Below are positions 42,756 through 58,097 of a stretch of DNA of 58,702 nt, in pieces. This DNA is from Acidobacteriota bacterium (lineage in GTDB: Bacteria > Acidobacteriota > Terriglobia > Terriglobales > Acidobacteriaceae): NCBI GenBank assembly GCA_003225055.1, contig QIAU01000146.1:1-58702 (forward strand), written 5' to 3'. Positions within the stretch are counted from its first letter, which is position 1. The number at the start of each line of letters is the position of its first letter. A program made the translations under genes and the position numbers. The notes below the pieces were generated by a model. The model saw only the letters and a list, made by a program, of their open reading frames with translations, ran no database searches and was not told where the DNA came from.

Positions 42756-43868
42756 TCAATTGCGTCCGGCGCCTGCGGTCTTGGTGGGCTCGGCGGCGAC
42801 GGCGCTGGTCGCGCGACGGCGGTCGGTGCCGCACTGCGCCTCGAGTGTCCTGGCCAGCGCATCCAGAGGGACGACTCGGGTCGCAAAACCCCGTTCGATG
42901 GCCGCCTTCGGCATGCCGTAAACCACGCAGGAATCTTCGCTTTGGGCGATGGTCAATCCGCTCGCGGCTTGTACAGCACCCAGAGCGGTAGCGCCATCGT
43001 CGCCCATACCCGTCATCAGTAGGGCGACACCACGAGGTCCGAACTCGTCGGCCAGGCTGCGGAAGAGCACATCGACCGAAGGACGATGTCCATTGACGCG
43101 GGGCTCGTCCGACAACAGAGCCACCTCTCCCAGCGGCAGCCGCTTAACTTTCAGGTGCCGGTTGCCCGGACAGATCAGCGCACGTCCCGCTACCAGAAGG
43201 TCACCCGAAGCCGCTTCCTTTACCCGGATGGAGCAGCATTCATCGAGCCGCCGCGCAAACATCTCGGTGAAGCCTTCGGGCATGTGTTGCGCGATCACGA
43301 TCGTGCCCGGGAAGTCTCCCGGCAATTGCGAAAGCATGTATTCGAGGGCGTTGGGGCCACCGGTGGATATCCCGATGGCGATCACGCGCGTCGGTTCCTG
43401 ATCGGGACCGGCTGCCAGCTTCGCGATTTTTTTCAGGTCCTCGGTGAGGGGCTGAAATTTTATTCGCTTGCTCAGCGCGGCCGCCTTGATCTTGCCGATC
43501 AACTCGCTCGCAATGTCCGGCATCTGCGCGGAAACGTCCTGCGGCTTGGCCACGAAATCGAAGGCTCCAAGGGCCAGCGCCTGCAGCGTGACCGATGCCC
43601 CTGCCGTGGTGTGGGAACTGACCACGATCACCGGGATCTGATGCTTCCGCATGACGGCCTTCAGCGTGTCGCTCCCGCTTAGGCCCGGCATTTCCAAATC
43701 CAGCGTAATGACCTGCGGCCGCAATTCCTCGATCTTCTTGAGCGCGAAATTTCCATCCATCGCCGTCCCAACTACTTGGATGGAACGGTCCTTCTCGATG
43801 ATTTGCGGGATCAGTTTCCGCATCAGTGCGGAATCGTCCACAACCAGAACTTTCACGGGGGAACTCAT
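42756..43868 (-). CDS. cheB: Chemotaxis protein-glutamate methylesterase CheB
   Basis: 370 aa. Receiver domain (1-125) with phosphoacceptor D57 in VITLDLEMPG, linker (125-160), and C-terminal methylesterase with the catalytic triad S168 (GISTGGP), H195 (AQHMPEGF) and D290 (MTGMGDDG). Removes methyl groups from the MCP and, in many species, deamidates glutamines. Start overlaps the end of cheA (43865-43868), showing coupling. The Ala/Arg-rich tail (DRRRATSAVAAEPTKTAGAG) is an extension. Confidence 0.95.
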   Translation of the reverse strand: MSSPVKVLVVDDSALMRKLIPQIIEKDRSIQVVGTAMDGNFALKKIEELRPQVITLDLEMPGLSGSDTLKAVMRKHQIPVIVVSSHTTAGASVTLQALALGAFDFVAKPQDVSAQMPDIASELIGKIKAAALSKRIKFQPLTEDLKKIAKLAAGPDQEPTRVIAIGISTGGPNALEYMLSQLPGDFPGTIVIAQHMPEGFTEMFARRLDECCSIRVKEAASGDLLVAGRALICPGNRHLKVKRLPLGEVALLSDEPRVNGHRPSVDVLFRSLADEFGPRGVALLMTGMGDDGATALGAVQAASGLTIAQSEDSCVVYGMPKAAIERGFATRVVPLDALARTLEAQCGTDRRRATSAVAAEPTKTAGAGRN

Positions 43869-46006
43869 GCCTCGACCCCCGTTGAATCGCCAGCTTTTCG
43901 TGTCATCGATTCCCCATGTTGGAAAAGCAGTCCGGAGAGCACGGCGCCTGCTTCTTCCGGCCGCATCCGGCCCATACGCTCCACGATTGCCGCCAGATTC
44001 AGGATCAGCACGACCCGTCCGTCGCCGAGGATGGACGCGCCACTCACCAGATCGGTCGTCACGACTTGATCGTCGAGCGCTTTGATAACCAGTTCCTCCT
44101 CGCCAACCAGGCCGTTCACAATCAGCCCGAGTTTTCTTTCGCCGACGTTGATCACCAGCACAAAGAATTTGCGCGAGCGTTTCTCCGTGTCTTCCGCCGG
44201 CAGATGACCGAGCCGCACCAGAGGCAGCATCTGATTGCGCAACGGCAGCACCTCGTGATTGTCCACCTGGTGTACTCCGCCTTCTGTCGCGCGGGCAATT
44301 TCGGCGACCGCATTCAGCGGGATCGCATACAGGCGCTCCTCGACCGTGAACATCAAAGCTTTGATGATGGCCAAGGTCAGCGGCAGTTTCAGCCGAAAGG
44401 TCGTGCCTTCGCCGGCGCCGGTTTCCACGCTGACGCTGGCTTTCATGCGCTGGAGAACACTCTGCACTACGTCCATACCCACGCCCCGTCCGGAAATTTG
44501 CGTGACTTCCTCCGCGGTGCTGAAGCCGGGGCGGAATATGAAATCCAGGGCTTCCGCATCGCTCAGCCGCGCGGCTTCTTGGGTCGTCACCAGTCCCATC
44601 TCGATGGCTTTGGCCCGAACCCGGGGCACGTTGATACCCCGCCCGTCATCCCTGACTTCCACCATGACCTGGTTGCCTTGATGGTAGGCGTCCAGTTGAA
44701 CCGTTCCTTGGGGACTCTTGCCCAGCCGCTGACGCTCTTCCGCTGGCTCGATGCCATGGCTCACGGCATTGCGCACCATGTGGGTAAGCGGCTCGGCAAT
44801 GGCATCCAGGATGCTCTTGTCCAGGTCCGTGTCCTGTCCGGTCAATACCAGCTCCACTTCTCTGCCGCACTGGTGCGCCACATCGCGCACGATTCTCGGG
44901 AAGCGGCGAAATAATTGCTCGACCGGCACCATGCGAATTTTCATCACCGCGCGCTGCAGGTCGTTGAGGACGCGCGCCTGAAAACCCATGGCGTCGGCGA
45001 ACTTATTGCGCAGCGTGTCCTTGGGATGCTGCCGCGCAAATTCGTTCATCACCTGATACAGCATCGATTTTCCAATAATGAGTTCGCCCACCAGATTGAG
45101 CACGTTGTCGATGCGCTCCGCATCCACGCGCAGGATGTTCTCTGCGCCGGCGATGCTAGGCGTCGGAGCAGCAGCCTGGCTGTCCCCCGGTTCTTCCGGA
45201 GCTGGTGAGGGCGCTTCGGTTACGTCTTTTGTCGGTTCTTCGGCACCCGCCGCTTTCTTGGCTTGCTTCGCCGCCTGCGCGGTCTCCATCGTCACCTTGC
45301 TGACAATGGATGGAATGTGACACTTTGCTTCGATCTCCTGCGGGGCGAGCTGGCTGCTCAATGCTGCTTCCACCAGTCGGGCGGCATCGCGCGCTCCCGG
45401 TTCTGGACGGATCGCCAATACCTCGCCTACGGTTTTCAAGGCGTTCTCAATCAGCTGCCGCGCTGCGACCGGCATGGCGCACACCGGATCAATCTGTGCG
45501 GCAATGTTGAAGACGTTCTTTCCCTGGCTCAAGGCATTACGGATGGCCAGCCGTTCATACTCGCTCCACGCGAAGTGGAGGCTTGAAGCGGATTTCTTGC
45601 GCCGCGTCTTTTTGGCGGGCGGCGCCGCCAGCTTGTGGATGCGGGCCCGCAGGGCCTGCGCGGAAGGAACTTTCTTCTTTTTGCGGTAGGCCTCGATCAG
45701 GGCGGCAAAGACGTCGGCGGCCGCCAAGGCAACTTCTGCCATCTGGTCATGCTCGGCGGAGCTGATTTCCAGCGCCAGCACATCCTCGAACTCATGAGCC
45801 AACTCGCTCAGCTCGCGATACCCACAAGCCCCGGCGTCTCCCTTCAGGGTGTGCACGATGCGCCGGATGCTGCGCACCACTTCGCTGTCGCCCGGTTTCT
45901 TCTCCAGCTTCAGCGCCTCTTCGTTGAGCGCCTGGATTAATTCCTGGGCGCTCTCAAAGAAGAGTTCGCGCAGTTCCGCGGTGCGGTCGTCGGATGAGTT
46001 GCTCAA
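43865..46006 (-). CDS. cheA: Chemotaxis histidine kinase CheA
   Basis: 713 aa. An Hpt (P1) domain with phosphorylatable H52 in SIRRIVHTLKGDAGACGY is followed by a helical linker/P2-like region (FAWSEYERLAIRNALSQGKN, about 145-270) and an acidic Ala/Pro linker. Then come a P3 dimerisation domain (ILRVDAERIDNVLNLVGELI), a P4 ATPase domain with N box HMVRNAVSHGIEPAEER and G boxes DDGRGI and GRGVGMDVV, and a P5 CheW-like C-terminus. No receiver is fused. The start overlaps the end of cheR (46003-46006), so cheR-cheA-cheB are all coupled. Confidence 0.95.
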   Translation of the reverse strand: MSNSSDDRTAELRELFFESAQELIQALNEEALKLEKKPGDSEVVRSIRRIVHTLKGDAGACGYRELSELAHEFEDVLALEISSAEHDQMAEVALAAADVFAALIEAYRKKKKVPSAQALRARIHKLAAPPAKKTRRKKSASSLHFAWSEYERLAIRNALSQGKNVFNIAAQIDPVCAMPVAARQLIENALKTVGEVLAIRPEPGARDAARLVEAALSSQLAPQEIEAKCHIPSIVSKVTMETAQAAKQAKKAAGAEEPTKDVTEAPSPAPEEPGDSQAAAPTPSIAGAENILRVDAERIDNVLNLVGELIIGKSMLYQVMNEFARQHPKDTLRNKFADAMGFQARVLNDLQRAVMKIRMVPVEQLFRRFPRIVRDVAHQCGREVELVLTGQDTDLDKSILDAIAEPLTHMVRNAVSHGIEPAEERQRLGKSPQGTVQLDAYHQGNQVMVEVRDDGRGINVPRVRAKAIEMGLVTTQEAARLSDAEALDFIFRPGFSTAEEVTQISGRGVGMDVVQSVLQRMKASVSVETGAGEGTTFRLKLPLTLAIIKALMFTVEERLYAIPLNAVAEIARATEGGVHQVDNHEVLPLRNQMLPLVRLGHLPAEDTEKRSRKFFVLVINVGERKLGLIVNGLVGEEELVIKALDDQVVTTDLVSGASILGDGRVVLILNLAAIVERMGRMRPEEAGAVLSGLLFQHGESMTRKAGDSTGVEA

Positions 46007-46908
46007 ACGTTCACCTCAACCCGCTGATACGCGGTTCCGTTGTTGCGATGTATCATCGCGAACTTGTCGGTCAGCCCCAGCAGGCTCTCGGCATGTCCGA
46101 CAAACAGGTAGCCCCCTGGATTGAGGCAACGATAGAACTTGTCCACCAGCCGCTTCTGCTCAGGTTCGTCGAAATACATCATCACGTTGCGGCAGAAGAT
46201 CACGTCATTGCGCTGCGGCAGATATTCTGTCTTCAGATTGTGGAAGTCGAAGTGGACGATCTCTTTTACAGCTTTCTTCACTGCGTACCGGTCGCCGACC
46301 TTGTCGAAGTAGCGCAGCCGGTAGCTGTAATCCACGCTGGACATCTGGGATTCGTTGTAGGCGCCTTCCTGCCCCGCACGCAAAACCGAGTAGCTGATGT
46401 CGGACGCCATTACCTCGACTTTCCAGGGCGGAGGCACCAGCGGCCGCGGCGAAACGTTAGCCGTGGGCAGGGGATTGCGCAGATAGTAATAAGCCAGGGC
46501 ATCAGAGATCAGCATGGCCATGGTGTATGGCTCCTGGCCGGTCGAACAACCCGCGCTCCACACCCGCAATGAAAAATCCCGCCGCGCCTGCTTCCGCTGC
46601 AGAATCTCTTCCAGAATGAACTTGTGAAACAGATCCAACTGCGCCTTGTTGCGAAAGAAACTGGTCTCGTTGATGGTGAGGTTCTCGAGCAACCGGGCCA
46701 GTTCCTGCTTGCCATCACTGCTGATCAAAAGCCGGTAATAGCTGTAGAAGGAATCCAGCTGGCATTCCCGCAGGCGGCGCTGCAAGCGGTCCTCGAGAAA
46801 ATGCGCGCGGCGCGCGTCGAAATGCATACCGCACTCCTGGTACACGAGCGCCTGGAGCAGCTTCAGTTCGGCATCGCTCAAGGATGGCGGCAAGGCGGGT
46901 GTGCTCAT
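46003..46908 (-). CDS. cheR: MCP methyltransferase CheR
   Basis: 301 aa SAM-dependent glutamate methyltransferase. The N-terminal helical domain (LKLLQALVYQECGMHFDARR) binds receptors; the catalytic domain has NETSFFRNKAQLDLF, the SAM loop VWSAGCSTGQEPYTMAM, MASDIS and the canonical IFCRNVMMYFDEPEQ with GGYLFVGHAESL. Works with CheB to adapt the MCP encoded just upstream in the operon. A second, divergent CheR is encoded at 57234. Confidence 0.95.
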   Translation of the reverse strand: MSTPALPPSLSDAELKLLQALVYQECGMHFDARRAHFLEDRLQRRLRECQLDSFYSYYRLLISSDGKQELARLLENLTINETSFFRNKAQLDLFHKFILEEILQRKQARRDFSLRVWSAGCSTGQEPYTMAMLISDALAYYYLRNPLPTANVSPRPLVPPPWKVEVMASDISYSVLRAGQEGAYNESQMSSVDYSYRLRYFDKVGDRYAVKKAVKEIVHFDFHNLKTEYLPQRNDVIFCRNVMMYFDEPEQKRLVDKFYRCLNPGGYLFVGHAESLLGLTDKFAMIHRNNGTAYQRVEVNV

Positions 46909-50174: not shown

Positions 50175-53021
50175 ATGCACTCTGGAAATGGCACGCTAGT
50201 TGATGACCCTGGTTCCCGGTCCGGTGAGACCTTTCAAAAGCTGCTGCTGCGATTGTGTGCGGCCGCTAATCAGGGACACGACACCCAATCCCTGCTTCGC
50301 CTCTTCTGTCAGATGACGCGGGAATTCTTCCAGGTGAGCGGCAGCTATTTCTGGCAGGTTGTTGCTCCCGATGAACTTGTGGGCACCGAGGCGGACGGAT
50401 TCATGGCCGACGAGTTTCGCGGCACCCGTCTGGGCCTCAAGACTGGAGCGAGCGAGGTCGCCTTGGAATCGATTCGCAGCCGCAAGACAGTTTACCTCAA
50501 CAATGTGGACCTGGAACGCTATCCCATGGCCCGGGAATATCGCGCCCGCTCCATCATGGCTGCCCCCTTAATCATTTCCGGAGAAGCGATCGGGGCGGCG
50601 GTTTTCGTGCACGGCTCCGATCCAGCCTTCTTCAGCGACGACTTGGCCGCCAAAGCTACCATCCTTGCCGGGCAGGCGGCGGTGGCACTGGAGATGACGC
50701 GCAATCTCCACCTTTCCGAGCAGCACCGCCGCCGGGCCGAAGCGTTGATGAGCCTGGCCCTGGAAACCAGTTCGCTCGTCCGGCTGCCCGAGTTCGCCAA
50801 GCGTTTTGTTTCCCGCGTCGCCGGCATGCTGGACGCCCACGCCGCCGCCCTGGCCCTTTATCAGGATTCGAAGCTGGAGACAGTGGTCCTCGAGGGCAGC
50901 CAGGGAAATGACCTTGCACTCTTCGGTCGTCTGAATGTTGCGCTGTCTGGGCTGCTACCTGAACATCGTCAAGCTATCTTTTCCGCGCCGGCCAATGAGT
51001 TGCTCGGTCCAGTCGCCTCGGCCCTCGGTTGGAATGACCTTACCGTGGCGCGGCTTCCCGGAACCGACGGAGAACTGGTTGGCCTGCTCTGCCTTGCCAA
51101 CCGCGGACATGCCGCCAATCAGGATGACGAGCTGCTTTTGCAGGCCATCGTCGGGCAGGCGTCTGTCGCCCTGGAGAACGCTCGCCTGTTCACCCGCATG
51201 GACCAGGCCAATCGCCACTGGCTGGAGATCTTCGATGCACTCTCCGATTTCATCGTGGTCCATGACGAGCACCACAGGGTATTGCGCGCGAACCGCCCGC
51301 TGGCGGAATTCATTGGCGTGCCCCCGCCGGAGCTGATCGGCATCAGCATGAGCGCGTTGATGTCCGTGGCTCCCGATGTCGCGCCGCGTTCCTGTCCGTT
51401 CTGCCGCAGCGACGTGGAGGGAGGCGACGAGTTCGTACAGCCCGTGCTGGAGCGCACCTACCTGGTTTCCACCTCGCGGGTTCACGCCAGCGAGAGTGAA
51501 AGCCTTCAGACTATCCACGTCTTGAAAGACATCACCGATCGCCGCGAGGCGGAGCGCCGCTATCGCGAGCTGTTCGATAACATCCAGGAGGGCTTGTTCT
51601 TCACCAGCCCCGAGGGCCGCTTCATCGAAGTGAACCAAGCCCTGGTTCGCATGCTGGGATACGACGGCCGGGAAGAATTGCTGCAGGCCGAGGTGCCGAC
51701 ACAAATCTATTCTTCGCCCGAACGCCGTCGCGAGCTGACACAGTTGGTGGAACAGCGCGGGGTCTTGCGGAACTACCACGAAACTCTGCGTCGCAAAGAC
51801 GGCTCGCTGATCCACGTGCTGATGAACGCCTTCGCGGTGCGCGACGCCCAGGGCCGCTTGACCCAATATCGCGGCCTCATGCTCGACATTACCGATCTCA
51901 AGAATTTTCAGTCGGAGCTACAGCGCGAGCGCGATTTCTCCAGCAAGATCCTGAACAATACCCAGAGCCTGATCCTGGTGGCCGATACTGCCGGTCTGAT
52001 CAGTTATGCCAACCGCCGCTGGTACGAAGCGGGAGGCTATCAACGAGAGCAGTTGCTGGGCCGCCCGCTGATGGAACTGATTGCTCCCACCCGCCGCTCG
52101 GCCATGCAGGAGGCGCTCGCCGCCACTCTCTGCGGCCAGCAGGTGGACAACCTTGAGCTTCCGGTCATGCGCGCCGATGGCCGCACCGGCCAATTCTCTG
52201 TCAATCTGAGCCCGATGCGTGATGACCAGGGCCACGTCTCCAGCATCGTCGTGGTCATGACCGACATCACCGACGCTTCCATGTTGCACGCCAAACTCAT
52301 GCATACCGAAAAGATGGCGGCGGTGGGCCAGTTGGTTTCCGGCGTGGCCCACGAGGTCAACAATCCCTTGACCGCCATTCTCGGCTTCGCCGATCTGCTG
52401 ATGGAAAATCCTGAGCTCCCCGATGCCGCCCGCAGAGATCTGCGGGTCATTCTTCAAGAGGCGCAGCGCACCAAACAGATCGTACAAAACCTGCTCAGCT
52501 TTGCTCGTCAGATGCCGCCTCAGCGCCAGGCGGTGCAACTCAACAGCATTCTCAGCCGCACCATTAAGCTGCGGGCTTACGATTTCTCCAGCCACGGCGT
52601 TGAGGTGGTAGAGAAGTACCTGAGCGATTTGCCCGACGTCATAGGCGACTCACACCAGTTGCAACAGGTATTCCTCAACATCATTAACAACGCATACGAC
52701 GCGGTGAGCGAGACGGAACGCCCGCCGCGCATCGAGATCGAGACCTCCACGGCGGGTGGTTTTGCCGAGGTCTCCTTCCGCGACAACGGTCCTGGCATCG
52801 CCCAACCAGACCGGATCTTTGATCCGTTTTTCACCACCAAGGAAGTCGGCAAGGGAACCGGGCTAGGCCTCAGTATCTGCTACGGAATTGTGCGCGAGCA
52901 TGGCGGCGAGATCTTCTGCCACAACCACCAAGACGGACCGGGCGCCACTTTCATTGTGCGACTGCCGGCGGTTTCCGAAACCGCCACCATGAGCGCCTCG
53001 GCGGGAGTTGTCGAGAGATGA
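50175..53021 (+). CDS. Cytosolic GAF/PAS multi-sensor histidine kinase
   Basis: 948 aa without membrane segments. Two GAF-like domains (about 15-170 and 185-340: YPMAREYRARSIMAAPLIIS, VGLLCLANRGH). Three PAS domains follow (about 350-460 with IFDALSDFIVVHDEHHRVLR; 465-585 with LFDNIQEGLFFTSPEGRFIE; 590-705 with ILNNTQSLILVADTAGLISY). Then HisKA with H726 in VSGVAHEVNNPLTAILGFAD and an ATPase domain with N box VFLNIINNAYDAV and G boxes FRDNGPGIAQ and GTGLGLSICYGI. It is the NtrB-like partner of the receiver and NtrC-type genes that follow (ATGA overlap at 53018-53021). Divergent from the che operon. Confidence 0.93.
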   Translation: MHSGNGTLVDDPGSRSGETFQKLLLRLCAAANQGHDTQSLLRLFCQMTREFFQVSGSYFWQVVAPDELVGTEADGFMADEFRGTRLGLKTGASEVALESIRSRKTVYLNNVDLERYPMAREYRARSIMAAPLIISGEAIGAAVFVHGSDPAFFSDDLAAKATILAGQAAVALEMTRNLHLSEQHRRRAEALMSLALETSSLVRLPEFAKRFVSRVAGMLDAHAAALALYQDSKLETVVLEGSQGNDLALFGRLNVALSGLLPEHRQAIFSAPANELLGPVASALGWNDLTVARLPGTDGELVGLLCLANRGHAANQDDELLLQAIVGQASVALENARLFTRMDQANRHWLEIFDALSDFIVVHDEHHRVLRANRPLAEFIGVPPPELIGISMSALMSVAPDVAPRSCPFCRSDVEGGDEFVQPVLERTYLVSTSRVHASESESLQTIHVLKDITDRREAERRYRELFDNIQEGLFFTSPEGRFIEVNQALVRMLGYDGREELLQAEVPTQIYSSPERRRELTQLVEQRGVLRNYHETLRRKDGSLIHVLMNAFAVRDAQGRLTQYRGLMLDITDLKNFQSELQRERDFSSKILNNTQSLILVADTAGLISYANRRWYEAGGYQREQLLGRPLMELIAPTRRSAMQEALAATLCGQQVDNLELPVMRADGRTGQFSVNLSPMRDDQGHVSSIVVVMTDITDASMLHAKLMHTEKMAAVGQLVSGVAHEVNNPLTAILGFADLLMENPELPDAARRDLRVILQEAQRTKQIVQNLLSFARQMPPQRQAVQLNSILSRTIKLRAYDFSSHGVEVVEKYLSDLPDVIGDSHQLQQVFLNIINNAYDAVSETERPPRIEIETSTAGGFAEVSFRDNGPGIAQPDRIFDPFFTTKEVGKGTGLGLSICYGIVREHGGEIFCHNHQDGPGATFIVRLPAVSETATMSASAGVVER

Positions 53022-53415
53022 CCAGCCCCATGGCAAAAGCTGGAACCCTCCCCATCCTGCTGATTGAGGACGAGCCTTCGGTGATGGCTTACGTGCAAGC
53101 TGCGTTGGAACGCGGAGGCTATCCGGTGGTGTGCTGTGAGTCGGGGGTCGAAGCTCTGCGCGCGCTCGCCTCGGGAAATTTCCTGGGCGTCGTTTCCGAT
53201 ATGCGCACCCCCGGCGGCGTCAATGGAGCCGATGTCCATGCCTGGATCGTCGAGCACCGCCCTGAACTGGCCTCCCGAATCGTGTTTATCACGGGCGATG
53301 TTGCCAATGATGAAACTGTGGCCACGCTGCGCAAGACCGGGGCGCCCTGCATCGAGAAGCCTTTCCGGGTCCAGCAGTTTATTTCCGTGGTGGAGAAAAC
53401 GTTGGGAAAGTCCGA

Positions 53416-53419
<4 letters not shown>
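53018..53419 (+). CDS. Stand-alone receiver-domain response regulator
   Basis: 133 aa. Acidic pocket in LLIEDEPSVMAY, phosphoacceptor D61 in VVSDMRTPGGVNGADV, T in FITGDVA and K114 in CIEKPFRV. No output domain. Start overlaps the kinase stop and its stop overlaps the next start (GTGA, 53416-53419), so kinase, receiver and activator form one coupled unit. May be a phosphate sink or relay between the kinase and other proteins of the island. Confidence 0.92.
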
Positions 53420-54810
<1,391 letters not shown>

Positions 54811-55083: not shown

Positions 55084-55431
55084 TTGGCCAGAGAGGCCCC
55101 AGCTCCGATCCAGGCGCGTCGGGAGAATTACGTCGCCAAACTGGCGAGCTTTTTTGCTGCCGCCACTCCGGTACGGATTCCTGTGCGTTTAACTCGGCTG
55201 GGTACCGGCGATGTTTTTTCGGAGAGCACGGTCATTGAGTTTGCCACTCCACGCGAGGTTCTCTTCGCCTGCGCCGCGCCTCTGGAATTTGCCGACCGTA
55301 TCCATCTCAAGAATTCGGACGGCTCTCTGGATGTGGAGGCCACGGTGGTGGCGGTGCAATATCACGAGGAAAAGACCGCGGTCGCTGCCCGGTTCACCCG
55401 GGACGTGGCGAACTGGATCGTGAAACCATGA
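55084..55431 (+). CDS. Small PilZ-like beta-rich protein (tentative)
   Basis: 115 aa, no signal peptide. Predicted beta-rich: VRIPVRLTRLGTGDVFSEST, VIEFATPREVLFACAAPLEF, IHLKNSDGSLDVEATVVAVQ, EKTAVAARFT. The alternation and the 'D/GxVxxV' strand spacing resemble a PilZ-type barrel, but the RxxxR and D-x-S-x-x-G signature for c-di-GMP is not clearly present, so ligand binding is not claimed. Start TTG 55084 with AAGAGG upstream. ATGA overlap with the next gene (55428-55431). Confidence 0.6.
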   Translation: MAREAPAPIQARRENYVAKLASFFAAATPVRIPVRLTRLGTGDVFSESTVIEFATPREVLFACAAPLEFADRIHLKNSDGSLDVEATVVAVQYHEEKTAVAARFTRDVANWIVKP

Positions 55432-56465
55432 ACGCTTCACCCTATTCGAACCACCTGCCCACCGAATGGCGTAACGCGCTTTGCCTGTATCCCCTTTACC
55501 TAGCGTTGGCCCAAGAATTTGTCATTGAACTCCCGGCCTCCCCGGAGCTTGAAAGCGGCACCGATGCCCCCAGCCAGGACTGTGTCCAGCAGGCGCGCCA
55601 GTGGTTCAACACCATGGATGAGCGCATCCAGGTGCATCAGTTGCGCCAGTTCCTGCAGACTACGCCGCTGGCGGACAATGAAATCGTGCGCCTGATGCTG
55701 CTCCGCCATCTTGGCAAGGAGCAGCGCACCCCGGCGGACCGCGATAAGATCGATTTCCTGCTGGTTCAATTCTTCTCTTTGTCCACCCCGTCCCGTCTCG
55801 ACGATAGCGACTGTGAACTGGACTATGTGGCGGAGATTCTGCGGCCGGTGCTCGGGGCGGTAGAGACCGTGCTATCCGACTGGCTCTCTGAGCTGGAGCC
55901 GATGATTCAGTCGGCCAGCGGCTGTCGTCGTTTGAGCGAATTGTTCACCCGCAAAATTCTCGAACAAGGACGCAAGCTCAAGGTGGAAGCCAAGGAGAAA
56001 TACTTCGAGCCGGTCGCCATGGTGGCCTTCACACGTTTTAGTTTTCTGATGCGCCGCGTCTTTTTCCGGCTCATGCACGAGGATCTGAACGCCATCCTCG
56101 ATGGTCTGCGCCAGCTCGAGAGCCACGGGATCACTACCCTCGACTGCCGCCGTGCCCACTTCTCGCACCAGGAGCCGACCGATCGGTTACGCATGATCTG
56201 TCATTCCTGGAAGGTGATGTTCCATGCCGAATATTCTTCCGGGCAGCCGTTGAAGATGCTCGCCGATCTGCGCACGGTGGTGGAAGAAGTCCTGGCCCGT
56301 TGCTCAGAGCCGGCCAATCCGGCGGCCCCGGCTACTCTTGCAGGTTCTTCAGAGCGGCCAAAAGCGCGCGCCGCTGCGGCAACTTCCGTGGCCTCCAGCT
56401 CAGCTGCCCCGGAATTTGAAGTGGCAACTTCCCAACCCGCGCACGACGAAGGCGATGGGATCTGA
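55428..56465 (+). CDS. Conserved hypothetical protein of the chemosensory island
   Basis: 345 aa, not recognised. Largely helical and cytosolic: WFNTMDERIQVHQLRQFLQT, NEIVRLMLLRHLGKEQRTPA, VAMVAFTRFSFLMRRVFFRL, then a disordered Ala/Ser/Pro-rich C-terminal tail (from about 305). The CDRAH-like histidine near LDCRRAHFSHQEPTDRLRMI is not a known phosphotransfer motif. Coupled by overlaps or short gaps to the PilZ-like gene before it and the DHp gene after it, so it is probably a structural or regulatory partner in that signalling unit. Confidence 0.75.
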   Translation: MNASPYSNHLPTEWRNALCLYPLYLALAQEFVIELPASPELESGTDAPSQDCVQQARQWFNTMDERIQVHQLRQFLQTTPLADNEIVRLMLLRHLGKEQRTPADRDKIDFLLVQFFSLSTPSRLDDSDCELDYVAEILRPVLGAVETVLSDWLSELEPMIQSASGCRRLSELFTRKILEQGRKLKVEAKEKYFEPVAMVAFTRFSFLMRRVFFRLMHEDLNAILDGLRQLESHGITTLDCRRAHFSHQEPTDRLRMICHSWKVMFHAEYSSGQPLKMLADLRTVVEEVLARCSEPANPAAPATLAGSSERPKARAAAATSVASSSAAPEFEVATSQPAHDEGDGI

Positions 56466-56467
56466 GC

Positions 56468-57181
56468 ATGAGTGATATAGCCACTCGGAATCGGGTTAAC
56501 GATCAGGCGACGGTTCTGATCATCGCCGACAACGCCGATTTTGCGCGCACGATTACCGCTCGCTGGCAGGCAGAGCGCGTGCTTCCCGGGTTCACGCTTA
56601 TGAGCGGCGATCTGTGCCCGGGGGTGAACGCCAGCGCCTTTGATATGGCCATCGTCGGCGACGTCCGTCCCGGCGTGCTGCCTTCCGTGCTTACGATCCT
56701 GGAGACCACGAACAAGCCGGTTCTTTTTGTTGCCCGGGACGCCCACACCGCGGCTACGGTACGCGAGACGCACACCCGCACGCTCGTACTTTGCCAGCCT
56801 GAAGAAGCCCTGGATGCCCTGGTCCTGGTTGCAACCGAAGCCTTGCGCGGCCGAGAGGCACTGGCCCGCGCCCGCCGCGCCGAGCAAACGGCCGCCAGCA
56901 ATGAAGGGCAGGCCACCCTCGGACGCTACATGCTCGAAATGCGGCACACGCTCAATGACGCCTTGACTTCCATGCTGGGAAATTCCGAGCTGCTATTAGC
57001 CGAGCCGGGCGCACTGTCGGCCAAGTCACGCGATCAGTTGGAGACGATTCGCCACATGGCGATCCGCATGCACGAAATTTTGCAACGCTTTTCCTCCCTC
57101 GAAACAGAACTGCGCTACGTGGAAAAACAAGCCGAGCGCGAAGCTCGCGCCCGGTCGCACGGAGCCGCCGACTGCCTGTAG
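56468..57181 (+). CDS. Degenerate receiver fused to a lone histidine-kinase DHp domain
   Basis: 237 aa. Residues 14-125 have receiver-like strands (TVLIIADNADFARTITARW, FDMAIVGDVRPG with D65, KPVLFVARD) but no conserved Thr or Lys. Residues 145-215 resemble a HisKA dimerisation domain with H160 in LEMRHTLNDALTSMLGNSEL, followed by a second helix (KSRDQLETIRHMAIRMHEIL). The protein ends in a basic helix without any ATPase domain. It may be a histidine phosphotransfer protein like ChpT/Spo0B in concept, a scaffold, or a kinase needing a partner. Two bases after the previous gene. Confidence 0.75.
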   Translation: MSDIATRNRVNDQATVLIIADNADFARTITARWQAERVLPGFTLMSGDLCPGVNASAFDMAIVGDVRPGVLPSVLTILETTNKPVLFVARDAHTAATVRETHTRTLVLCQPEEALDALVLVATEALRGREALARARRAEQTAASNEGQATLGRYMLEMRHTLNDALTSMLGNSELLLAEPGALSAKSRDQLETIRHMAIRMHEILQRFSSLETELRYVEKQAEREARARSHGAADCL

Positions 57182-57233: not shown

Positions 57234-58097
57234 ATGGTAGATAGACTCACGGCTAGCATGGCGGTTCTCGACTGCGAGATATCGGAAATCCGCCTGCTTC
57301 TCGAACGCCATGCCGGGGTGCTGCTGGACAAGCCTGCGGAAGCGCTCTGTGCCGACATCGCGCAATACCTGGAATCCCGCCACATGAACTCGGCAGCCGA
57401 GTTGATGGGTGCGCTGCGGAATTTTTCCGGCGAGCGTGACGCGCTGCTGGAGCGCTTACTGCCCGGCGACACCACGTTCTTTCGCTATCCCGGCGCTATG
57501 GAGGCGTTGGAGAAAAGAGTCCTGCCCGAACTCAAGCAGCGCAAGAAATATGACCATCCTCGCTCTCTGCGGATCTGGAGTGCTGGCTGCTCGACCGGCG
57601 AGGAGGCTTACTCAATTGCCATCGCGGTTTGCGAGGCCCTCAAGGGAGACTCAGGAGGCTGGAACGTCCTCATCGTGGCCAGTGACATTCGCCAGCAAGC
57701 GCTGGCCTCAGCGAAAAAAGGCTTATATCCCCGGCGCGCCCTGAAGAACGTGCCCCGTCACCTGATTACGACCTACTTTTCCCGTGTCGGTGACCACTTC
57801 CTGGTGAAACCCCGCCTGCTGAGCTTGGTCACTTTTACCCCCATGAATCTTGCACAGACCAGCTTCATCGGCCGCTTCGATTGCATCTTCTGCATGGATG
57901 TTCTGCCGCACTTCTCGCTCAGGCAGCGAACAACCCTGCTCCCCCGCCTGCATCTATATCTCGAACCGGGCGGCTGTCTGTTTCTCGGTCAGAACGAAAA
58001 ATTGCCGGCTGCTGAGGTGAACTTCAGTTCCCAGTCGTACCTGTCCTTTGCCTACCACCAAAGACCACTCGCCGCGGCGGCAAAATCGGGAAAGTAA
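57234..58097 (+). CDS. Second CheR-type methyltransferase, divergent active region
   Basis: 287 aa. N-terminal helical domain (EISEIRLLLERHAGVLLDKP), LPGDTTFFRYPGAMEALEKR, the SAM loop IWSAGCSTGEEAYSIAIAVC and VASDIRQQALASAKKGLYPR are CheR-like. The segment that is normally IFCRNVLIYF reads IFCMDVLPHF, losing the conserved Arg-Asn, while GGCLFLGQNEKL keeps the end motif. The target may be a non-MCP protein. It ends the operon that begins at 55084 and is on the opposite strand from the canonical cheR. Weak ribosome-binding site. Confidence 0.88.
   Translation: MVDRLTASMAVLDCEISEIRLLLERHAGVLLDKPAEALCADIAQYLESRHMNSAAELMGALRNFSGERDALLERLLPGDTTFFRYPGAMEALEKRVLPELKQRKKYDHPRSLRIWSAGCSTGEEAYSIAIAVCEALKGDSGGWNVLIVASDIRQQALASAKKGLYPRRALKNVPRHLITTYFSRVGDHFLVKPRLLSLVTFTPMNLAQTSFIGRFDCIFCMDVLPHFSLRQRTTLLPRLHLYLEPGGCLFLGQNEKLPAAEVNFSSQSYLSFAYHQRPLAAAAKSGK

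Follow-up and report, generated by a model that had tools for sequence, protein, structure and literature searches.

The window examined here is the whole stretch of 58,702 nucleotides (positions 1-58,702) of contig QIAU01000146.1 from an Acidobacteriota bacterium (GCA_003225055.1). It encodes, at 56468-57181, a protein that carries a receiver-like domain followed by a DHp hairpin, with genes for a histidine kinase, two receiver proteins and a CheR methyltransferase around it. The features on which the analysis rests are the following.

50175-53021, + strand: histidine kinase with GAF, PAS, HisKA and HATPase domains (Pfam)
53018-53419, + strand: RR133, a single-domain receiver (Pfam)
53416-54810, + strand: NtrC-type activator with receiver, sigma54 activator and HTH_8 domains (Pfam)
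55084-55431, + strand: p115, a small conserved protein, PilZ-like by eye only
55428-56465, + strand: p345, an all-helical protein (open reading frame, model)
56468-57181, + strand: pseudo-receiver-DHp protein, 237 residues, ATG start (open reading frame)
56507-56857, + strand: receiver-like domain, residues 14-130, lacking the phospho-acceptor Asp, the Thr and the Lys (model, fold matches, column counts)
56657-56659, + strand: codon of Gly64, at the site of the receiver phospho-acceptor Asp (alignment columns)
56900-57115, + strand: HisKA-type DHp hairpin, residues 145-216 (Pfam and AlphaFold2 model)
56945-56947, + strand: codon of His160 (alignment columns, 129 proteins)
56948-56950, + strand: codon of Thr161, +1 to the His (alignment columns, 129 proteins)
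56957-56959, + strand: codon of Asp164, +4 to the His (alignment columns, 129 proteins)
57234-58097, + strand: CheR methyltransferase (Pfam), whose counterpart in relatives belongs to a Pil-Chp-like operon

HisKA (PF00512) is the sole Pfam family matched by the window copy at E ≤ 1. It covers residues 158-210 with an E-value of 8.8e-06 and 26.1 bits, slightly below the curated 26.9 bits; because 20 of the 21 orthologues in our alignment A1 also match HisKA (Pfam, E ≤ 0.01), the DHp call stands above chance. At the same threshold, neither Response_reg (PF00072) nor HATPase_c was matched by any of the 21 members of A1, and the matches returned by an NCBIfam search were all far below cut-off. The AlphaFold2 model computed on A1 has a mean pLDDT of 88.3 and a pTM of 0.67. 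Residues 15-130 of the model form five strands alternating with helices in the manner of a receiver, the last helix of this head extends as helix 1 of the DHp (114-178), and helix 2 spans residues 185-235, giving the DHp hairpin that had been predicted. The histidine of the hairpin, His160, lies in the window copy within LEMRHTLNDALTS.

Receivers of known structure match the head with Z of about 13-14 and an rmsd of 2.2-3.7 over 109-139 residues, and a designed Rossmann-type protein is also found among the fold matches. When the A1 profile was searched against PDB sequences no natural receiver was matched, and the top match was this designed protein (E 4.8e-06). Our assignment of the head as a receiver is based on its modelled fold and its position, not on a sequence match. 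The original prediction of a receiver-like fold joined to a HisKA-type DHp with no ATPase domain is upheld by Pfam, by the model and by a tail of at most 31 residues, and the degeneration of the receiver goes further than had been proposed, as the phospho-acceptor Asp is missing (Gly64) along with the usual Thr and Lys.

Over the whole protein, the best fold match in the PDB is LvrB (8vc9; Foldseek E 6.7e-06), which also tops the VIA-align list (Z 14.1, 210 aligned residues, rmsd 11.2), a comparison in which the chains listed hardly probe the DHp part. LvrB is a Leptospira hybrid response regulator described as having a receiver at residues 7-120 (Asp56), a DHp at 149-213 (His161) and an ATPase domain (PMC5863495). 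As far as that description goes, the protein reported here is like LvrB in placing the receiver first and the DHp second, with the His at a nearly equal position (161 in LvrB, 160 here), and unlike LvrB in lacking both the receiver Asp, which in LvrB is conserved as Asp56, and the ATPase domain (PMC5863495). The receiver-first order and the missing receiver residues had been called unusual. The order already occurs in hybrid response regulators such as LvrB, and the difference here lies in a dead receiver site and the absence of an ATPase domain.

Family membership and conserved residues

By sequence search, 22 of 61 genomes contain the protein, the window's own included; an initial scan of genome contigs with the single protein as query gave no match, and neither did plasmid records. 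We then sampled more widely with profiles. In the class, 58 of 299 sampled genomes were positive, every one in families f1 or f7. In the phylum, a sample of 396 genomes gave strong matches (E ≤ 1.6e-86) in only five, all f1; the remainder had E-values of 2.7e-17 or weaker, and the six weaker matches that were fetched are HisKA regions of other proteins (four of them checked by Pfam). So far, then, the protein is known from two families within a single acidobacterial class. When named genomes were scanned, 107 relatives were obtained, of which 80 were kept, all from assemblies titled as acidobacterial (Acidobacteria, Acidobacteriaceae/-ales, Terriglobia/-ales, Candidatus Sulfotelmatobacter and Candidatus Acidiferrales). 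Our literature searches listed no account of such an acidobacterial protein, which is not proof of its absence in print.

The pooled set comprises 158 loci and 129 distinct proteins, identical proteins being counted once and a few rows being without the N-terminal part. Dropped beforehand were duplicate loci (L048-L050, L055 and L056), fragments (L103 and L104) and a partial copy in genome G004 (L025/L046), as well as L026-L045, in which counted loci recur as wider cuts. The tail beyond Glu214 is at most 31 residues long in these proteins (median 23). Since no member exceeds this length, the lack of an ATPase domain characterises the whole family. A longer kinase truncated in the window by a frameshift or an assembly error is ruled out, as 129 distinct relatives stop no more than 31 residues from the same point.

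Conservation is unevenly distributed along the protein, with a mean column entropy of 1.96 bits in the receiver part versus 0.96 bits in the DHp. Ten residues are invariant in 129 of 129 proteins (A149, G152, Y154, L166, T167, G171, L175, M197, R207 and E214), and 20 DHp columns show at least 95% identity. In the receiver part, the phospho-acceptor site is Gly in 120 of the 129 and Asp in one, while Asp21, the acidic residue closing strand 1, is kept in 122. The window copy has Ala114 where 97.7% of the set have Trp.

Position 160 is His in 112 proteins, Pro in 15, Asn in one and Ser in one, and the fraction with His may be overestimated because one of the two seed patterns in the named-genome scan required Arg-His, favouring His-bearing loci, and 80 of the 107 relatives were kept. 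His160 ranks 33rd of the 72 DHp positions in conservation. No protein has an acid (Asp or Glu) at +1 (0/129), where the window copy has Thr. The +4 position is Asn in 124 proteins, including 14 of the 15 with Pro160, and Asp in five, one of which is the window copy; it thus has neither Asn nor Thr there. The original prediction mentions neither the Thr at +1 nor the Asp at +4. The kinase of the same gene cluster serves as a control: of its 68 matches, 66 retain His, Glu at +1 and Asn at +4, and two have gaps at these sites. The sole Ser160 copy (L024, genome G029) has Asp at the usual Gly position of the receiver, His at 159 and a very long branch.

These positions have been dissected by Willett and Kirby in four HisKA kinases, in which the acid after the His is required for kinase but not for phosphatase activity, and the Thr or Asn at +4 for phosphatase but not for kinase activity (PMC3510030). 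By analogy, the pattern of the family would fit a phosphatase or a docking DHp and not an obligatory relay.

Gene neighbourhood

In the window, p115 and p345 overlap by four bases, p345 stops two bases before the receiver-DHp protein, and CheR begins 52 bases after it. This tight spacing suggests that the four genes are read as one transcript. Neighbouring genes in relatives were called as tblastn matches (E ≤ 1e-6) with one window or L041 protein each as query, and because single queries were used, some of the genes matched as kinase, receiver or activator may be paralogues. Upstream sequence of 7.9 kb or more is available for 66 distinct loci. Of these, 56 have a match to the 50175 kinase upstream on the same strand, and matches were found to RR133 in 55, to the NtrC-type activator in 61, to p115 in 59 and to p345 in 58. 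Of the 62 loci with 7.9 kb or more of downstream sequence, 23 carry a complete Che operon, 25 CheR alone, 11 none of these genes and three another arrangement. The place between the kinase and a chemosensory system that had been suggested from the window is thus seen in synteny across relatives, and the protein probably sits next to an NtrB/NtrC-like system on one side and a Pil-Chp-like chemosensory operon on the other, the latter in 23 of the 62 loci. In the 25 CheR-alone loci, the counterpart of the window CheR (57234-58097) adjoins the protein with neither CheA nor MCP as a neighbour.

The full downstream operon runs CheY, CheW, MCP, CheR, CheA and CheB, and in L041, the one operon checked by Pfam, the CheA combines two Hpt stretches with a fused receiver. 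The components match those of Pil-Chp, including the Hpt domains and fused receiver of CheA. The gene order is that of the pil genes, with the receiver-DHp protein in the place of PilG. The roles of the Pil-Chp components are described for Pseudomonas, in an account whose portion considered here mentions no pseudo-receiver-DHp protein (PMC12632253). The operon CheA (E ≤ 1e-80) occurs in 10 of 61 genomes, all 10 of which also carry the receiver-DHp protein, and a further 12 genomes of the 61 have the protein without the operon CheA. PilT was found above the family cut-off in 17 of 17 tested genomes with the protein versus 2 of 5 tested genomes without it; this co-occurrence is compatible with a link to type IV pili and is no proof of one. 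The window also holds a second, separate chemotaxis cluster at 42756-46908 (CheR, CheA and CheB on the - strand, named by eye). This cluster contains the window assembly's one match to the CheA-type dimerisation domain, at 44936-45139.

The two proteins encoded immediately upstream are of no recognised family. p115 has no family match above the family cut-off. p345 is modelled as all-helical, with a block of pLDDT above 90 at residues 11-260, and has 37 invariant columns in 28 sequences; we found no Pfam match (E ≤ 1), no significant match to PDB sequences and a best Foldseek E-value of 0.73. With an all-helical model and no significant match to a fold or a Pfam family, p345 finds no support as a hidden ATPase. 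In several loci with a retained Che operon, p345 is longer, at 464 residues and more.

Loss of His160

The original prediction assigned the protein a phosphotransferase role through His160, and conservation of this residue in orthologues had been chosen beforehand as a point on which the prediction could fail. We found 17 of 129 proteins without the His, and the His label needs three changes on a tree built from 78 rows, of which 72 differ, whose bootstrap had not settled. Thirteen Pro rows form one side of a single branch (support 98/85), and the Asn row and the Ser row are separate losses. The Ser row and one Pro row have long branches.

The DHp of the Pro branch is under purifying selection. 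Using only pairs with dS between 0.05 and 1.2, the median dN/dS of the DHp is 0.149 in the Pro group (23 pairs, maximum 0.276) and 0.213 in the His group (1725 pairs); for the receiver part, the values are 0.252 and 0.530, respectively. A substitute histidine in the Pro branch is ruled out, as no column is His in all 15 proteins and the best, position 195, is His in 13.

The surroundings of the Pro-type protein are also kept. In eight distinct flanked Pro-type loci, the NtrC-type activator, p115, p345, CheY, CheW, MCP, CheR and CheA are present in 8/8, and the kinase and RR133 in 7/8, the eighth (L170) having merely 3.1 kb upstream. Asp61 of RR133 is kept in 61/61 His-type and 9/9 Pro-type loci where RR133 was found, and the phospho-acceptor Asp of CheY in 22/22 and 9/9 where CheY was found. 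That of the NtrC-type activator is kept in 67/70 and 9/10, the rest being gapped. His160 is kept in 18 of the 23 loci with a full Che operon, in all 25 with CheR alone and in 10 of the 11 without these genes, which indicates that loss of the His does not go with loss of the Che genes. Residue 105 of the downstream CheY (e.g. L041:8761-9138) is Asp in 22/22 His-type and Asn in 9/9 Pro-type loci, a difference that may be a mark of the clade or a change tied to the loss of the His.

A phosphotransferase of the Spo0B, ChpT or PhyT type would pass phosphate from the kinase at 50175 to the receiver at 53018, then to His160, and from there to the NtrC-type activator (or to or from CheY). The arrangement of the genes has what such a relay requires, namely a single-domain receiver between the kinase and the NtrC-type activator, and the His is present in 112 of 129 proteins and in every CheR-alone locus. 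One precedent is PhyT, formerly regarded as a phosphatase, which connects two receivers in a relay through a His (PMC5898713). Against this stand the three losses of the His, with a Pro branch that retains the rest of the protein, the kinase, both receivers and the activator, the complete absence of an acid at +1, and the middling rank of His160 among the DHp positions. Obligatory phosphotransfer via His160 is not supported, given a Pro branch that keeps the DHp, the operon and the partner receivers, and with the outcome for His160 conservation a phosphotransferase has ceased to be the best explanation of the family. We consider such a relay, abandoned in the Pro, Asn and Ser branches, unlikely. 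Proteins of the His-bearing majority may still transfer phosphate.

Possible roles

We give about an even chance to the protein being an LvrB-like hybrid response regulator that has been stripped to a receiver-docking DHp, and that acts as a probable phosphatase or docking regulator. An LvrB-like ancestor with receiver, DHp and ATPase domains would have lost the ATPase domain and the receiver phosphorylation site. The remaining DHp would form a dimer that docks at least one receiver encoded nearby, be it RR133 (53018), the NtrC-type activator (53416) or the adjacent CheY of relatives, and the docked receivers would be acted upon without ATP, with the pseudo-receiver as an input or docking head. 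In the Asn164 majority, the protein could be a phosphatase or a sink for phospho-receivers, while the Asp164 copies, the window's included, would more likely be plain docking or sensing proteins of the DivL kind. This phosphatase or docking reading is favoured by the absence of an ATPase domain and of an acid at +1, by the dispensable His and by the Asn kept in 124 of 129 proteins. We infer dimerisation, receiver docking, phosphatase or sensing activity and the choice of partner from the architecture, the conservation, the loss of the His and the gene neighbourhood. The protein is a small relative of sensor kinases in a signalling operon of soil Acidobacteria, and its probable mode of action is a grip on partner signalling proteins and not the transfer of phosphate.

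We suggest, with slightly less than even confidence, that this two-component protein, both of whose chemical halves are dead (an unphosphorylatable receiver, and a DHp lacking an ATPase domain and in one branch also the His), is kept as a dedicated regulator that reads or clears phospho-receivers and couples an NtrB/NtrC-like pathway to the Pil-Chp-like operon. In many relatives the protein occurs without the Pil-Chp-like operon.

Work on other DHp domains bears on the phosphatase part of this reading in both directions. The DHp of NtrB or EnvZ alone is enough for phosphatase activity, which the ATPase domain raises greatly, and in EnvZ the His enhances phosphatase activity but is not required (PMC3510030). 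In CrdS, the H371A variant has reduced phosphatase activity, and N375D, the counterpart of Asp164, has no significant phosphatase activity (PMC3510030). A bare DHp without His may be a poor phosphatase, given the effect of H371A and the boost from the ATPase domain. The window copy and the four others with Asp164 may likewise be dead phosphatases that only dock, by analogy with CrdS N375D and with DivL. The Asn at +3/+4 could instead be kept for helix packing. His160 itself, present in 112 of 129 proteins, is retained above the expectation for a spent residue, and this counts against the docking or phosphatase reading.

DivL of Caulobacter provides the analogy for a sensor. Its acceptor His is replaced (Tyr550), and it binds DivK~P without kinase or phosphatase activity (PMC4211667). 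DivL differs from the family described here in having an ATPase domain and PAS sensors (PMC4211667), and differs from the window copy in that the latter retains His160; the 17 relatives without the His resemble DivL in this respect. Since DivL is without phosphatase activity, phosphatase and sensor are, on this analogy, best treated as distinct sub-readings. ChpT and Spo0B depend on their His and possess a degenerate ATPase-like C-terminal domain. The receiver-DHp protein is like them in being a DHp hairpin without kinase activity, but has no space for an ATPase-like domain after Glu214 and has its His replaced in part of the family.

An alternative that needs no His is that the protein pairs with the DHp of the kinase at 50175 and modulates the kinase through a mixed bundle, as RetS is held to do with GacS. 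A matching kinase neighbours the protein on the same strand in 56 of 66 loci, the DHp shares 32% identity with the kinase's own DHp (E 0.006), and it matches RetS chains (E 0.22-0.23; 0.90-0.94). Such weak matches are, however, expected for any HisKA domain, and we regard this partnership as improbable. Still further down, a decaying remnant without function is very hard to credit: the window copy deviates at conserved sites (Ala114 for Trp, Asp164 for Asn) and the receiver part is far more variable than the DHp (1.96 versus 0.96 bits; dN/dS 0.53 in His-type pairs), but the reading frames are intact, the group-wide DHp dN/dS medians are 0.21 (His type) and 0.15 (Pro type), and the 20 nearly identical DHp columns hold across all 129 proteins.

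DHp domains are usually viewed via their histidine. Here the ATPase domain, the acid needed by kinases and the receiver site are gone, and in one branch the His has become Pro. The DHp helix pair is strongly conserved nonetheless, making the family a natural system in which to ask about DHp roles without phosphotransfer, such as docking, phosphatase action and kinase control. It also draws attention to an uncharacterised gene cluster that sets an NtrC-type pathway beside a Pil-Chp-like system in Acidobacteria known here from metagenome-assembled genomes.

DHp proteins without an ATPase domain recur in Acidobacteriota, as two further kinds were found. Apart from the family's own members, the profile scored best in the phylum sample against the HisKA region of a protein with GAF-GAF-PAS-HisKA-receiver architecture (L191:1551-4019, - strand; 823 codons), in which no ATPase domain was matched. 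In addition, short open reading frames with HisKA only (115-138 codons from stop to stop; four of five checked by Pfam) occur in five genomes of family f34 (G512, G404, G674, G414 and G358; L198-L202 and L227-L231), encoding 97-103 residues from the first ATG or GTG. Seven of their neighbours were scanned in four loci; two have no Pfam match and five match enzyme or pirin families. Both kinds share with the receiver-DHp family a HisKA domain without an ATPase domain and differ from it in keeping the RHE(I/V)NNP motif, which is intact in the f34 frames. The receiver-DHp family is the most degenerate ATPase-less DHp among those seen, and the f34 proteins are candidates for true single-domain phosphotransferases or phosphatases.
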